This document shows positions 54,855 to 58,737 of a stretch of 64,000 bases of DNA, piece by piece (within the stretch, counting starts at the first letter, position 1; the number at the start of each line of letters is the position of its first letter). Source of the DNA: Chloroflexota bacterium (GTDB taxonomy: Bacteria > Chloroflexota > Anaerolineae > Anaerolineales > UBA4823); assembly GCA_029265355.1 (NCBI GenBank), contig JAJUJL010000004.1, positions 186,001 to 250,000 of the forward strand, given 5' to 3'. Made by a program: the position numbers and the translations under genes. A model generated the notes under the pieces. It saw nothing but the letters and a program-made list of their open reading frames with translations, made no database searches and had not been told where the DNA came from.

Positions 54855-54860
54855 GTGCGC

Positions 54861-55622
54861 ATGGCGAAATTCGACCTGGCTTTTTCTCCCCCGCTGATGA
54901 ACGCCGCTGGCACCCTGGGATTTGTCCCAGAGCGGCGAGGTTTAGCCGCGCTGGAAAGGCTGGGCGCTTTTGTCACCAACCCGATCAGCCGCCAGGCGCG
55001 CACCCCGGCTGCCGGGCAGCGCTATTTGGAGTATGCAGGGGGCTTTATGCTGCACACCGGACACCCCAACCCCGGCTTCAAAACCGCCGTCAACCGCTAT
55101 GCCCGCCTGTGGGCAAGCCTGGAGCTGCCGGTCATCGTGCACTTGCTGGCCCAAGAGCCAGCCGACCTGGCCTGGATGGTGGAACGCCTGGAAGGGTTGG
55201 AGGGCTTGATGGGGATCGAGATTGGCTTGCCGCCCGAGGCCAGCGCAGCCCAGGCCACTGAGCTGGTCGATGCTGCCTGGAGCGAGCTGCCGGTGATTGC
55301 CCGCCTTCCGCTGGAAGGCGCAGCGCAATTGGCCTGGAGTGTGCTGCAGGCTGGCGCGGCGGCGATCAGCCTGTCTGCGCCGCGCGGCGCCCTACCAGCC
55401 AGCTCGGCAGGCTTGCTCTGCGGGCGGCTGCATGGGCCGGGCGTGTATCCCCTGGCGCTGCGGGCAGTGCACAGCCTGGCCGTGCAAGATATTCCGGTCA
55501 TCGGCTGTGGGGGCATCTACTCGCCAGAGCAAGCCCGCGAAATGCTGCTGGCGGGAGCGCTGGCAGTGCAGCTAGATGCGGTTTTGTGGAGTGGGCGCGA
55601 CCTGCAAACCTTCACCGTTTGA
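54861..55622 (+). CDS. Dihydroorotate-dehydrogenase-like protein, catalytically degenerate
   Basis: A 253-residue, FMN-barrel protein of the PyrD class 1 type but about 50 residues shorter than usual. The opening LMNAAGTLGFVPE and the C-terminal phosphate-binding VIGCGGIYSPEQAREMLLAGA match the family. Where PyrD has the substrate Asn and active-site Cys region it reads IEIGLPPEAS, and where PyrD has the catalytic Lys of VKLSPN it reads ARLPLEG. So normal orotate formation is unlikely. ATG 54861 is preferred over GTG 54855. With the PyrK-like gene it looks like a repurposed redox pair. Confidence 0.75.
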   Translation: MAKFDLAFSPPLMNAAGTLGFVPERRGLAALERLGAFVTNPISRQARTPAAGQRYLEYAGGFMLHTGHPNPGFKTAVNRYARLWASLELPVIVHLLAQEPADLAWMVERLEGLEGLMGIEIGLPPEASAAQATELVDAAWSELPVIARLPLEGAAQLAWSVLQAGAAAISLSAPRGALPASSAGLLCGRLHGPGVYPLALRAVHSLAVQDIPVIGCGGIYSPEQAREMLLAGALAVQLDAVLWSGRDLQTFTV

Positions 55623-55638: not shown

Positions 55639-56082
55639 TCAGTCCTCATCTTCCAATACGATCGTCACCGGCCCATCGTTTTCAATCTCCACCAGCATGT
55701 GAGCGCCAAATTCACCCGTCTGGGTGGGTACCCCTTGCAGGCGCAGAAGCTCTGCAAAGCGCTCCACCAGCGGGCGGGCAACCTCCGGCAACGCTGCCTC
55801 GGTGAAGGAGGGTCGGCGTCCTTTGCGCGTATCGGCGTACAGCGTGAACTGTGACACCACGATCGCCTGCCCGCCCGTCTCGAGCAGCGAGCGATTCATT
55901 TTGCCGGCCTCGTCTTCGTAAATGCGCAGGTTGGCGATCTTCTCGACCAGGTGACGCGCCTGCGCTTCCCCATCCCGTGGCCCAATGCCCAGCAGAATGA
56001 CCATGCCGGGGCCAATCTCGGCGACGCAGCGATCTTCGACCGAAACGCGCCCGCGTCGCACGCGCTGCAATACGGCTCTCAC
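55639..56082 (-). CDS. dtd: D-aminoacyl-tRNA deacylase
   Basis: A 147-residue Dtd that removes D-amino acids (and mischarged Gly) from tRNA. The family signature is MRAVLQRVRRGRVSV at the N-terminus, SQFTLYADTRKGRRPSF (77-93, with the Ser-Gln-Phe-Thr active-site segment) and the GAHM motif near 125. It follows trpS by 14 bases in the T-box operon. Confidence 0.96.
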   Translation of the reverse strand: MRAVLQRVRRGRVSVEDRCVAEIGPGMVILLGIGPRDGEAQARHLVEKIANLRIYEDEAGKMNRSLLETGGQAIVVSQFTLYADTRKGRRPSFTEAALPEVARPLVERFAELLRLQGVPTQTGEFGAHMLVEIENDGPVTIVLEDED

Positions 56083-56096
56083 CGCCTTCTCCTCGC

Positions 56097-57086
56097 TCAG
56101 GGCAGCGCGATGGCTGCTTTCACTTCAGCGATGGTTTGCTCGGCAATCGCCGCCGCACGCTGCCGCCCCTGGTCCAGCACGTCCCACACCTGCTGCGGGT
56201 CGCGGCCAATCTCAGCTCGCCTCTGGCGGAACGGCGCCAGGTGCGCGTTCAGATTGCGGGCAAATAACTGCTTGCACTGCACACAGCCAATGCCCGCCCG
56301 GCGGCACTCGATATTGACCATAGCGACCTCGTCTGGGCTGGAAAAGACCTTGTGCAGCGAGAACACATTGCACACCTCCGGGTTGCCCGGATCGCTGCGC
56401 CTCTGGCGCTGTGGATCGGTCACCATTTGCATGACGCGCTGGGTGGTTTCCGCTTCCGTGGCTGCCAGCTCGATGTGGTTGTTGAGACTCTTGCTCATCT
56501 TCTGTTGCCCATCGATGCCCAACACTTTGGGGAACTCGGTGGCTTTCATCTGCGGCTCAACCAGCACATTGGTTTTATAGCGGAAATTGAAGGAGCGCAC
56601 CACCTCACGGGCGAACTCGATGTGCGGCTCCTGGTCGATGCCAACTGGCACCGTGTCTGCCTTGTAGAGCAAGATATCCGCCGCCATCAACACCGGGTAG
56701 CCCACCAGACCGTAGTTGACATTGTGGGGCTGCTGGCGCGCCTTCTCCTTGAACGTGGGCAGGTCGGTCAGCTTGCCCAGGGGTGTGACCATGGAGAGGA
56801 ACAAGTGCAGCTCAGCAACTTGCGGGACGTGCGACTGGACGAAGATGATCGAGTCTTCCGCGCGAATGCCAGCAGCCAGCCAGTCGAGAGCCATCTCATA
56901 GGTGTTCTGGCGCAGATTTTCGGTGGTGTCCACCGTGGTCAGCGCGTGGAGATCAACGATGCAGTAAACGCACTCATATTCGTCCTGTAAGGCGACGTAG
57001 TTTTTGATGGCGCCCAGGTAATTGCCCAGGTGCTGACGTCCGGTAGGCCGGGCGCCGGAAAAGACGCGTCCTTTTTTGTGTGGCAT
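56097..57086 (-). CDS. trpS: Tryptophanyl-tRNA synthetase
   Basis: A 329-residue class I synthetase charging tRNA-Trp. The HIGH-type motif is TGRQHLGN near residue 15, the tryptophan pocket GYPVLMAADIL follows, and KMSKS is KMSKSLNN near residue 193. ATG 57086 (MPHKKGRVFSG) begins five bases after the SelW-like stop, so translation may be coupled. A Trp-specific T-box leader lies upstream of the operon, matching a tRNA-charging feedback. Confidence 0.97.
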   Translation of the reverse strand: MPHKKGRVFSGARPTGRQHLGNYLGAIKNYVALQDEYECVYCIVDLHALTTVDTTENLRQNTYEMALDWLAAGIRAEDSIIFVQSHVPQVAELHLFLSMVTPLGKLTDLPTFKEKARQQPHNVNYGLVGYPVLMAADILLYKADTVPVGIDQEPHIEFAREVVRSFNFRYKTNVLVEPQMKATEFPKVLGIDGQQKMSKSLNNHIELAATEAETTQRVMQMVTDPQRQRRSDPGNPEVCNVFSLHKVFSSPDEVAMVNIECRRAGIGCVQCKQLFARNLNAHLAPFRQRRAEIGRDPQQVWDVLDQGRQRAAAIAEQTIAEVKAAIALP

Positions 57087-57090
57087 GGCT

Positions 57091-57339
57091 CTAGCCCTCC
57101 CGTAAGAATTTTTGCACCAGGCTGGCGACCTCTCCCGGCTCGGCATGCCGACGGGTCGCCAGCTTGGAATAGAGCAAGGTGCCGTTGACGGTTACCTCGA
57201 AACGACCGCCGTCCGAGGGGATCAGCGTGAGCCGCTCGATCTCGGGCTCAAATTCCTTCAACAATTCCACCGCCAGACTGGCAGCCCGATCGGTGTAATG
57301 TCAGATGGCGCAATAAACGATTTCGATATTCAGCAACAC
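57091..57339 (-). CDS. SelW/Rdx-family selenoprotein (UGA codon 13)
   Basis: An 82-residue thioredoxin-like Rdx protein missed by standard calling because codon 13 (57303-57301) is TGA. Reading it as Sec gives IEIVYCAI-U-HYTDRAASLA, the CxxU redox motif after the first strand as in SelW, then LLKEFEPEIERLTLIPSDGG, FEVTVNGTLLYSKL and RRHAEPGEVASL, all typical of the family. GTG 57339 has AGGAG about eight bases upstream. A hairpin with a GUC loop follows the UGA (57270-57284). It is the first gene of the T-box operon with trpS and dtd. The redox role is presumed from the family. Confidence 0.88.
57270..57284 (-). promoter_or_regulatory. Candidate bacterial SECIS hairpin of the SelW-like gene
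   Basis: On the minus strand CTGCCA (57284-57279) pairs with TGGCGG (57275-57270, one G-T wobble) around the loop GTC, which starts 23 bases after the UGA. The loop begins with G as in known bacterial SECIS elements. Confidence 0.6.
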
Positions 57340-57356
57340 GACCACTCTCCTCGGTT

Positions 57357-57389
57357 CAAGGGTGTGATTGTGGGACAGACACACCCTTG
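57357..57389 (-). promoter_or_regulatory. Second leader hairpin adjacent to the ribosome site
   Basis: CAAGGGTGTG (57357-57366) and CACACCCTTG (57380-57389) are perfect inverses. The hairpin lies after the T-box terminator and ends about six bases before the AGGAG of the SelW-like gene; it has no T tract. Confidence 0.6.
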
Positions 57390-57400
57390 GATTAAGTGAA

Positions 57401-57655
57401 AACCCCGCCGGTGATACGACGGGGTTGGAAAGCCAGTTTCACGCGGATCGAGTGCGGCCCAATCGGATAAAGATGGGCGATACCCTTTGCCTGGATAACG
57501 GCGGCAGCCCCGGCGCAGGATACTGAGCAGTCAATAAGACTGCCGTTGTCCGGCGCAGCTCCGAGGTCCATTCAGCGCCAGCGCTCGGGCGGAATTTTCA
57601 GCAACTACCGCTCTCTGAGCCGCCGCTTGGGCGCGTACTCGTCCTCATCAAAGCC
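57401..57655 (-). promoter_or_regulatory. T-box riboswitch specific for tRNA-Trp
   Basis: Reading leftward, the Stem I landmarks occur in canonical order: GATGAGGACGAGTA (AG-bulge GAGTA at 57640-57636), CAGAGAG (57617-57611), GCTGAAAA (57602-57595), then the specifier region GAATGGACC (57573-57565) followed by GGAGCTGC (57562-57555). The codon in specifier position is TGG, Trp (57570-57568). A terminator hairpin, AACCCCG/CGGGGTT with a TTTT tract (57426-57399), closes the leader. Uncharged tRNA-Trp should favour readthrough into the SelW-like gene, trpS and dtd. I could not clearly place the T-box bulge that binds the tRNA end; TGGC near 57435 is one candidate. Confidence 0.85.
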
Positions 57656-57676
57656 TGTGGTGGTTAAGTTGGCTAG

Positions 57677-57682
57677 AGTATA
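57677..57682 (-). promoter_or_regulatory. Putative -10 box of the T-box operon
   Basis: TATACT on the minus strand (57682-57677), about 20 bases before the start of Stem I. A clear -35 is not seen. Confidence 0.4.
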
Positions 57683-57794
57683 TCACAAATATTGTTTTGG
57701 CTGCGTTGGTCGGGTAGCTTTCATCAGCTCTGGATAATTGCATGGGCAAATAGCACACTTAATTGACGAGGGAGCCATTTAGCGGACAGAGCAC

Positions 57795-58520
57795 TTAGAT
57801 CATCCAGTAGGTGGCAAGCGCGAGCATATCGATTAGCCCATGGATGATGACGAAATACAGCATCAACTGTGGGCGGAGTTTCAGCAGCAGGCCCACAAAC
57901 AGGGCAAAGGGCATGTACATCCCCAGGCGCCACAGCATGAAGCGCGGGTCGAGGATCAACGGCAGAAACACGTGTTGCGCGCCGAGGAAAAAAGCCGCCA
58001 CCAGCCACGCCAGCCAGCCATTTTTGAGCTGTGTCGCCAGGCGGGGCATCACATAACCAAAATAGGTGGGCAACTCGGCAAACGCGATTGTCAGCGGAAA
58101 GAGAATGCTGAGTGCAAGAGCCCAGGCAGGCAGCGGGCGGAACATCACAGTGATGGGCTCCATTGGGTCGCGATAGAGCGCCGCCGCCAGCATATTCATG
58201 GGCAAAGCCGCCGCCGGCAGGCCAAGAATCGAAGTGCCCAAGAGCCACAACAGATCGGTTTTGAAGGTTTTCCGTGAGAAGCGCAAAATTGCTAGAAAGC
58301 GCAAACCTTCCGCGCGGAACAGCCTGACCAGCAGATAGATACAGACAAGATTGGCCAATATGGCAAAAAACGGCCACCAGCGAGCAGCCTCATACCAGGC
58401 AGAGGTGTTTCCCATCAAGACAAAAATCAGAGCAAACAAGACCTGGGCGAAAATAAACAATACCGAACGCGAAATCAGCATGATCCATGGGGCGGTCGGC
58501 GAAGATTGAGACGGGTTCAT
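57795..58520 (-). CDS. CPBP-like integral membrane protein, active site altered
   Basis: A 241-residue protein with about seven to eight membrane helices. The layout resembles CPBP (Abi/CAAX) intramembrane metalloproteases: motif 2-like FFLGAQHVFLPL with its His, and a late HGLIDML with His. The canonical EExxxR of motif 1 appears only as ELPTYFGYVMPRL, lacking the second Glu and shifting the Arg. So activity is doubtful, or this is a divergent subfamily. ATG 58520 has a GAGGA site nine bases upstream; ATG 58529 is too close to it. Confidence 0.72.
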   Translation of the reverse strand: MNPSQSSPTAPWIMLISRSVLFIFAQVLFALIFVLMGNTSAWYEAARWWPFFAILANLVCIYLLVRLFRAEGLRFLAILRFSRKTFKTDLLWLLGTSILGLPAAALPMNMLAAALYRDPMEPITVMFRPLPAWALALSILFPLTIAFAELPTYFGYVMPRLATQLKNGWLAWLVAAFFLGAQHVFLPLILDPRFMLWRLGMYMPFALFVGLLLKLRPQLMLYFVIIHGLIDMLALATYWMI

Positions 58521-58737
58521 CGGTATCATTCCTCGGGAGATCGGTTTTGGATGACTTTCACGCCAATTCTACACTGGTAACCGCGTTGGTGAAGGGTTTA
58601 TTATGGATGTATTGGACAGGCTTCGCGCCGCTTGCAGCGCATCATCCAATCGCTAAATGCGAATCTGCCACTTAATTATGCTACAATCTAGGTGAGTTAT
58701 CTCCCTGCTGGTATGAGCCTGATTCAGGAGGTGAGTT

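Follow-up and report, generated by a model that had tools for sequence, protein, structure and literature searches.

On the minus strand of the window, the 64,000-nucleotide stretch of Chloroflexota DNA that we analyzed, a selW-trpS-dtd operon is preceded by a leader that is probably, though with considerable doubt, a transcriptional tRNA-Trp riboswitch combining the Stem I/II front of a T-box with a reduced discriminator that we call D1. In a wider reading, the case for which seems to us evenly balanced, D1 would be a second architecture of the T-box discriminator, nested with the canonical one in many Anaerolineae-type Trp leaders and standing alone before selW-trpS-dtd. As part of that reading, D1 would comprise a helix in which GUGA-n-RC pairs with the terminator loop; UGGC would head the hairpin loop, and both ACC and a helix A2 would be absent. 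Sequence comparison supports the Stem I homology, the specifier, the terminator, the pairing of arm and loop, and the presence of UGGC in sets of leaders that were chosen independently of the motif.

The original prediction placed a tRNA-Trp T-box in this leader, and the landmarks that it named were all located, in order, on the minus strand between 57340 and 57700: GAGTA (57640-57636), AGAGAG (57616-57611), CTGAAAA (57601-57595), the UGG (Trp) specifier codon (57568..57570) within AATGGACC, GGAGCTGC (57562-57555), and the terminator. The Stem I, or specifier domain, spans 57551..57653 and is followed by CCGTTATC (57494..57501), the F-box of a Stem IIA/B element, and by a Stem III-like hairpin (57450..57488) with AAAG before it. 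An extended -10-like promoter element, TGTGATATACT, is predicted upstream of the leader (57677..57687, minus strand), and several relatives have TGATATACT or TGGTATACT at this place. Directly upstream of the leader lies a gene for a 244-aa hydrophobic protein (57795-58529, minus strand) with no Pfam or NCBIfam match at 0.001.

A search with the Rfam T-box model, proposed as a check of the T-box, gave a match in a permissive scan of 57200-57800, where the full RF00230 model covers 57480-57660 of the minus strand (61 bits, E 8e-13), but this score lies below the gathering score of 93 bits, at which a default scan finds no RF00230 match in the whole window. The genome that contains the window has nine T-box matches, one above the RF00230 cut-off and eight below it, and at least one match above the cut-off is present in 44 of 61 genomes (this genome and 60 relatives). 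Folding of the leader, the other check proposed, gave a z-score of -2.73, with 1 of 200 shuffles equally stable. The fold of the whole leader is a single long-range structure, unlike the T-box consensus, and was left unused for structural interpretation. The Stem I sequences of 37 Trp leaders, aligned as A1, have changed on both sides at 21 of 22 pairs. The match and the covariation bear out a tRNA-Trp T-box-type leader. The Stem I model R1 gives the window leader 100.4 bits (L039:1940-2042), but the leader is one row of that model, so the score is not independent.

ATGG stands at the specifier place in 30 of the 32 Stem I matches from protein-selected or own-genome loci, the exceptions being L091 and L069. 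The latter match (21.7 bits) was rejected as spurious, having neither an F-box nor a specifier. We discount the invariance of ATGG in the 37 rows of A1, because ATGG was in the search expression that chose them. The F-box sequence CCGTTA is found in 63 of 66 Stem I matches kept by hand, a set without duplicates and without the non-Trp L003 and L005, and is absent from L069, L090, and L091. In the 59 leaders with a D1 module, the Stem III-like hairpin fits its search expression in 29, and among the 30 that do not fit, the folds, read by eye, show a hairpin there in 28. L061 and L064, both with D1 alone, have just 17 bases at this place. Their lack of the hairpin is a point against reading D1 as a riboswitch element; excerpts of a review call Stem III indispensable in canonical T-boxes (PMC7583486).

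As an ordinary T-box, the leader holds up in its front half and fails in its 3' half, where the canonical T-box sequence is absent. GTGGNACC was not found on the minus strand from 57700 to 55601, which means that the defining T-box sequence is missing from the window leader and that no canonical box was found further downstream, as far as 55601. Likewise, none of 16 selW/trpS1 leaders has GTGGNACC within 260 bases from the F-box on. These 16 leaders (15 before selW-trpS1 operons, and L064) were picked by their proteins and the Stem I model, independently of the D1 motif, and every one of them contains GUG-n-CUGGC and then a terminator. A script test found a UUU run after the terminator in 15 of the 16; the U tract of L073 is weaker. 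Judged by the features that define RF00230, the window leader has a Stem I with a specifier codon and conserved loops, and a terminator with an antiterminator whose mutual exclusivity is deduced from geometry, and it lacks the 7-nt UGGNACC bulge between helices A1 and A2. Homology in the front half makes this leader a T-box, yet its discriminator falls outside the definition. We accordingly class it as a variant whose mode of action is probably that of a T-box.

D1 consists of GUGA-n-RC followed directly by UGGC, and it is complementary to the terminator loop GY-n-UCAC. In the window, the 5' arm GUGAAAC (57436..57442, minus strand; columns 5-11 of alignment A2) can pair with the loop GUAUCAC (57411-57417), the 3' arm of a putative antiterminator helix, AT1. 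The loop belongs to the intrinsic terminator T1 (AACCCCGUCGUAUCACCGGCGGGGUU, 57401..57426), which is supported by covariation and energy and whose core, CCCCGTCGTATCACCGGCGGGG, runs from 57424 to 57403 and is followed by TTTT. T1 and AT1 would be mutually exclusive, since they share the loop and both together would make a pseudoknot with almost no connecting bases. The UGGC directly 3' of the arm (57432..57435) is present in all 16 selW/trpS1 leaders and is a candidate for pairing with the GCCA end of tRNA-Trp. The complementarity follows from G73: the tRNA-Trp of this genome ends in G73-CC(A), as found by aragorn, which detected one tRNA-Trp in the 37 tRNA-bearing loci scanned (the genome has 43 tRNA matches).

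We tested these pairings in alignment A2, which holds 59 distinct D1 modules, of which 41 have a canonical box downstream and 18 do not; seven of the 66 Stem I matches lack D1 and lie outside it (L069, L085, L090, L091, L093, L097, and L105). Both sides have changed at five of the seven pairs of T1 (columns 28-34 with 44-50) and at one of the six pairs of AT1, in which 93.5% of cells are paired. Taken as one structure, AT1 and T1 have 93.9% of cells paired, compared with 31-61% for slid partners, and 33 cells with changes on both sides, compared with 9.1 in shuffles, a count reached by none of 500. Jointly, the two helices exceed all 500 shuffles on four of five measures, as well as all slid controls. 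Further pair types numbered 12, against 11.8 in the shuffles, and this was reached by 309 of 500. The cells with changes on both sides sit mostly in T1, and the contribution of AT1 is column pair 10-36, which is GC in 43 modules, AU in six, GU in five, and another combination in five; A is always opposite U (6/6), and G is opposite C in 43, U in five, and G in five. This pair is broken in 5 of the 59 modules and pair 8-39 in 16. In five leaders with D1 alone (L017, L020, L030, L152, and L171), the R-Y pair of AT1 is replaced by two facing Gs; at least four of these leaders (L017, L020, L030, and L152) come under one genus label, g19. Chance as a source of the leader signal is rejected on the Rfam match, the Stem I covariation, and these shuffles.

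The calculated energies in the window are -12.8 kcal/mol for T1 and -2.1 kcal/mol for AT1; alone, AT1 is a weak helix beside T1. Across a larger set of 79 modules, the duplex of arm and loop has a mean energy of -5.5, compared with -3.8 when the loops are shuffled, the lowest of 200 shuffles being -4.3. Divergent modules, the T1 stems of which differ, retain complementarity of arm and loop with changed sequence, as in GUGGGGC:GUCCCAC (L258) and GUGAG:CUCAC (L248). The invariance of CUGGC in the 59 and the 79 modules is partly a product of selection, because CUGGC was in the pattern or regular expression used. Free of that selection are only the sets chosen by protein and Stem I, or by Rfam, namely the 16 selW/trpS1 leaders and 15 other Trp T-boxes.

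It is conceivable, if rather unlikely, that D1 is a real terminator/antiterminator switch in which UGGC does not contact the tRNA: GGC:GUC pairs in the 5' arm of T1 would instead lengthen AT1, and any action of the tRNA would go by way of the Stem III-like hairpin upstream. The lengthened helix has an energy of -5.2 kcal/mol in the window, and the pairs are possible in 72 of the 79 modules, as placed by a rough script, so the conservation of UGGC need not mean that it pairs with tRNA. However, under this placement the other seven modules (L092, L089, L249, L257, L258, L260, and L261) cannot form all three pairs and still have UGGC. The position of UGGC immediately 3' of a helix also matches that of UGGN in all known T-boxes, as described in excerpts of PMC7583486, and a leader that makes no contact with the 3' end of the tRNA would hardly distinguish charged from uncharged tRNA.

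The 18 modules of A2 without a canonical box belong to selW/trpS1-type leaders in every case with a visible next gene. The 41 tandem leaders, in which the canonical box lies 65-145 bases past the start of D1, precede trpE, trpB-like (trpB2), or trpS2 in the cases with an identifiable gene; seven of the proteins were named by NCBIfam and the others by eye, and some loci end too early. In the leaders of trpE, trpB2, and trpS2, D1 lies inside Stem III of the canonical discriminator, which places two terminators in series. The trpE (L001) and trpB2 (L002) leaders of the genome that contains the window are tandem leaders of this kind, with both terminators behind a single Stem I.

In tandem leaders, AGGCUGGC pairs with a 3' strand that ends -CCU-AA just before the canonical box. 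Among 39 of the 41 (L098 and L209 have no anchor, and L095 was counted with a doubtful one), pairing is kept at AGG in 39, 39, and 38 leaders, at C in 35, and at U, G, G, and C in 31, 34, 28, and 27. The GAGUG before AGGCUGGC fits the RRRxG purine string, and the UAA after it the AA, that excerpts of PMC7583486 describe for canonical Stem III. The 5' strand of D1 thus doubles as purine string and Stem III strand in the canonical discriminator. L139 has an A at the variable position and matching changes in all three strands. The idea that UGGC is simply a second T-box was revised, since AGGCUGGC in tandem leaders also forms one strand of Stem III in the canonical module, and the leaders with D1 alone became the deciding set because they have no canonical box downstream. 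Column 4 of the purine string is A in all 41 tandem leaders, compared with 7 of the 18 leaders with D1 alone, in which CUGGC is fixed. Relaxation of column 4 with CUGGC kept is the pattern that would be expected if D1 has a function of its own. One trpS2 leader, L097, has GAGUGAGGCUGGC and a canonical box and no T1, which may represent the state before T1 was inserted or a loss.

We also scanned genomes for D1. A motif scan of the 61 genomes found 33 places in 29 genomes, compared with one for the reversed pattern; at two of the 33 (L137 and L140) no T-box front is visible. A stricter form, applied to 84,980 species genomes, gave 45 stretches, the titles of which name Chloroflexi, Chloroflexota, Anaerolineae, Anaerolineales, Anaerolinea, Thermanaerothrix, and one 'Candidatus Aquidulcis'. 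Stem I was found in 37 of the 38 stretches given to the Stem I model; in the exception, L183, the motif lies 27 bases from the edge. Thermanaerothrix daxensis, a cultured relative, has D1 together with a canonical box (L196). A D1 profile matched 23 of 251 genomes of the phylum under stricter filters, which lose weak matches: the genome that contains the window, 17 of 20 others of its order, 5 of 10 of its class, and none of the 220 genomes of other classes in the sample. CUGGC is present in all 27 of the profile matches, though the model favours it, and AATGG is present in 23 of the 24 displayed with their upstream part, the view of L263 beginning behind that place. Thus, D1 has so far been found only in one class of Chloroflexota. 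Within its genome, the window leader is one of three D1 matches (the Trp leaders of selW-trpS, trpE, and trpB2), compared with the nine T-box matches. Among the 15 other Trp T-boxes, which were chosen by the TrpS2 protein or, in the same genome, by Rfam, nine combine D1 and T1 with a canonical box, L097 shows strand and box but lacks T1, and L085, L090, L091, L093, and L105 lack D1. Since D1 accompanies T1 in just 9 of these 15 T-boxes outside the selW/trpS1 group, it is not universal.

The first gene of the operon (57091..57339, minus strand, GTG start) encodes a selW-like selenoprotein of the Rdx family, with matches to PF10262 (4.4e-20) and TIGR02174 (57.6 bits, cut-off 34.2), and has the combination that defines SelW-like proteins, an Rdx domain with a CxxU motif and an in-frame UGA (57301..57303). 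An Rdx match is present in 45 of the 61 genomes, and every one of these homologs contains a single in-frame TGA. A bacterial SECIS-like hairpin, about 17-31 bases past the UGA (57270..57284 in the window), has changed on both sides at five of six pairs in the 45 sequences, and the genome has both tRNA-Sec (75.4 bits; also found by aragorn) and SelB (309.5 bits, cut-off 242.25). By these comparisons, the selenoprotein predicted at the head of the operon is real. It is followed on the same strand by trpS, for tryptophanyl-tRNA synthetase (56097..57086; TIGR00233, 295.6 bits, cut-off 176.75), and by dtd, for D-aminoacyl-tRNA deacylase (55639..56082; TIGR00256, 163.7 bits, cut-off 101.5). A convergent gene (54855-55622, plus strand) encodes a dihydroorotate dehydrogenase domain that scores above the Pfam cut-off and below the NCBIfam cut-offs.

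The predicted conservation of the gene order was examined by tblastn on fetched loci, requiring a TrpS identity of at least 60%, the same strand, and a gap of less than 500 bases. A close TrpS homolog follows selW in 35 of the 45 genomes, as anticipated, and dtd is also present at 27 of these 35 selW-trpS1 loci, with several of the remaining ones truncated. Of the 10 genomes left, eight (L032, L040, L041, L042, L045, and L120-L122) have selW adjoining dtd with no close trpS in between, which may mean that the selW-dtd linkage is the older one.

We next compared these operons for the presence of the T-box. With the Stem I model, credible Trp T-boxes were found ahead of 15 of the 35 selW-trpS1 operons (a sixteenth match is the spurious L069) and ahead of none of the 10 selW genes without an adjoining trpS1. 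In G007, a genome with no Rdx match, a T-box precedes trpS1-dtd without selW (L064). Given this distribution, control by the T-box appears to belong to trpS. The UGA and the SECIS-like hairpin are kept with or without a T-box, which suggests that selW rides along with a switch linked to trpS. The remaining 20 selW-trpS1 operons have no T-box match. They include G032, where the upstream region is cut by a contig edge; it has a D1 leader at the end of one contig (L152) and selW near the start of another (L025), and with the contigs left unjoined it was counted as a miss. In the 18 genomes that have two types of TrpS, a close and a divergent one, a T-box was seen on the close one in five, on the divergent one in eight, on neither in five, and on both in none, a tally in which the G040 match (L091) lacks ATGG and the G046 leader precedes trpE. 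Exclusion between the two trpS genes of a genome is suggested, with flanks read for about 1.5 kb, and the 'neither' class is unsafe, because G047 and G060 have a D1 match 1.7-1.9 kb upstream of the divergent trpS, past the flanks.

The patchy occurrence of the T-box would also fit a selW-trpS leader that is a degraded T-box, stripped of its canonical discriminator, with T1 now a constitutive partial attenuator. The canonical box is indeed missing after the 18 modules of the selW/trpS1 type, and 20 operons have no T-box match, the upstream region of G032 being cut off. We consider this explanation distinctly unlikely, however: D1 persists together with Stem I and its UGG specifier across 10 genus labels, pair 10-36 has undergone compensatory change, and the substitutions fit the release of the canonical module alone from constraint. 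The original prediction further speculated that the T-box couples Trp starvation to decoding of the selW UGA by near-cognate tRNA-Trp, which has only the proximity of the UGA and UGG codons in its favor and is rejected as highly improbable, because the T-box tracks trpS rather than selW and the UGA is conserved in all 45 homologs, 30 of them without a credible T-box match (G032, cut off upstream, included); tRNA-Sec and SelB are, moreover, present.

If D1 is the reduced discriminator of a tRNA-Trp riboswitch, Stem I would read the CCA anticodon through UGG, as its homology and covariation support. The GCCA 3' end of uncharged tRNA-Trp would then pair with UGGC next to the GUGAAAC arm, stacking on and stabilizing the covarying helix of GUGA-n-RC with GY-n-UCAC. 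The antiterminator would occupy the T1 loop and block T1, and RNA polymerase would read through into selW-trpS-dtd; with charged tRNA, T1 would form and transcription would stop. Before trpE, trpB2, and trpS2, the 5' strand of D1 would then serve again, as the purine string and the 5' strand of Stem III in a canonical discriminator with a second terminator, making two checkpoints. One tRNA would thus be checked twice in tandem leaders, and the selW-trpS leaders would keep the first checkpoint only.

The window leader resembles a canonical T-box in its Stem I with UGG, AGAGAG, and apical-loop motifs, its F-box, its Stem III-like hairpin, its intrinsic terminator, and its trpS target. It differs in that a D1 leader has no T-box sequence (AGGGUGGNACCGCG), no ACC, and no visible helix A2, and in that the UGGC of D1 follows a helix made with the terminator loop. 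The 'partially double' T-boxes of Vitreschak and colleagues (2008) reportedly have one specifier domain and two antiterminator/terminator units, each with a canonical T-box sequence. The tandem leaders with D1 would be like them in having one specifier domain and two switches; the two forms may overlap, which bears on novelty.

Tandem trp T-boxes have also been described in Bacillota, where, according to excerpts of PMC12452182, every unit comes with an aptamer and a platform of its own and the trp cases are observed in that phylum alone. Leaders with D1 plus a canonical box likewise have two terminators in series before Trp genes, but their two modules are nested, have a strand in common, and depend on a single Stem I, and they occur in Chloroflexota. 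Dehalococcoides, of the same phylum, has Trp T-boxes at trpE and trpB-like genes, the same targets as those of D1 leaders, whereas no module like D1 is described in the excerpts of that report (PMC2494555). As for the first gene, excerpts of PMC1794560 describe a SelW-like family with Sec that has very few or no Cys homologs in Sec-containing organisms. The window selW belongs to this family, but an operon with trpS and dtd under T-box control goes unmentioned in those excerpts. The titles and abstracts listed for Trp T-boxes of Chloroflexi, for tandem and atypical T-boxes, for T-boxes with a selenoprotein and trpS, and for selW with TrpRS describe neither the D1 module nor such operon control, a negative that does not extend to the broad comparative surveys of 2008 (Vitreschak) and 2009 (Gutierrez-Preciado).

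Given that eight of the nine T-box matches in this genome lie below the cut-off, scans that depend on the canonical box or on the Rfam cut-off can miss leaders such as these. The aminoacylation-sensing end of T-boxes is described, in excerpts of PMC7583486, as one nearly invariant design. If our reading is true, a conserved, covarying alternative, found both in series with that design and alone, would indicate that the sensing domain can be rebuilt, and the leaders that combine D1 with a canonical discriminator would be natural double-checkpoint riboswitches.
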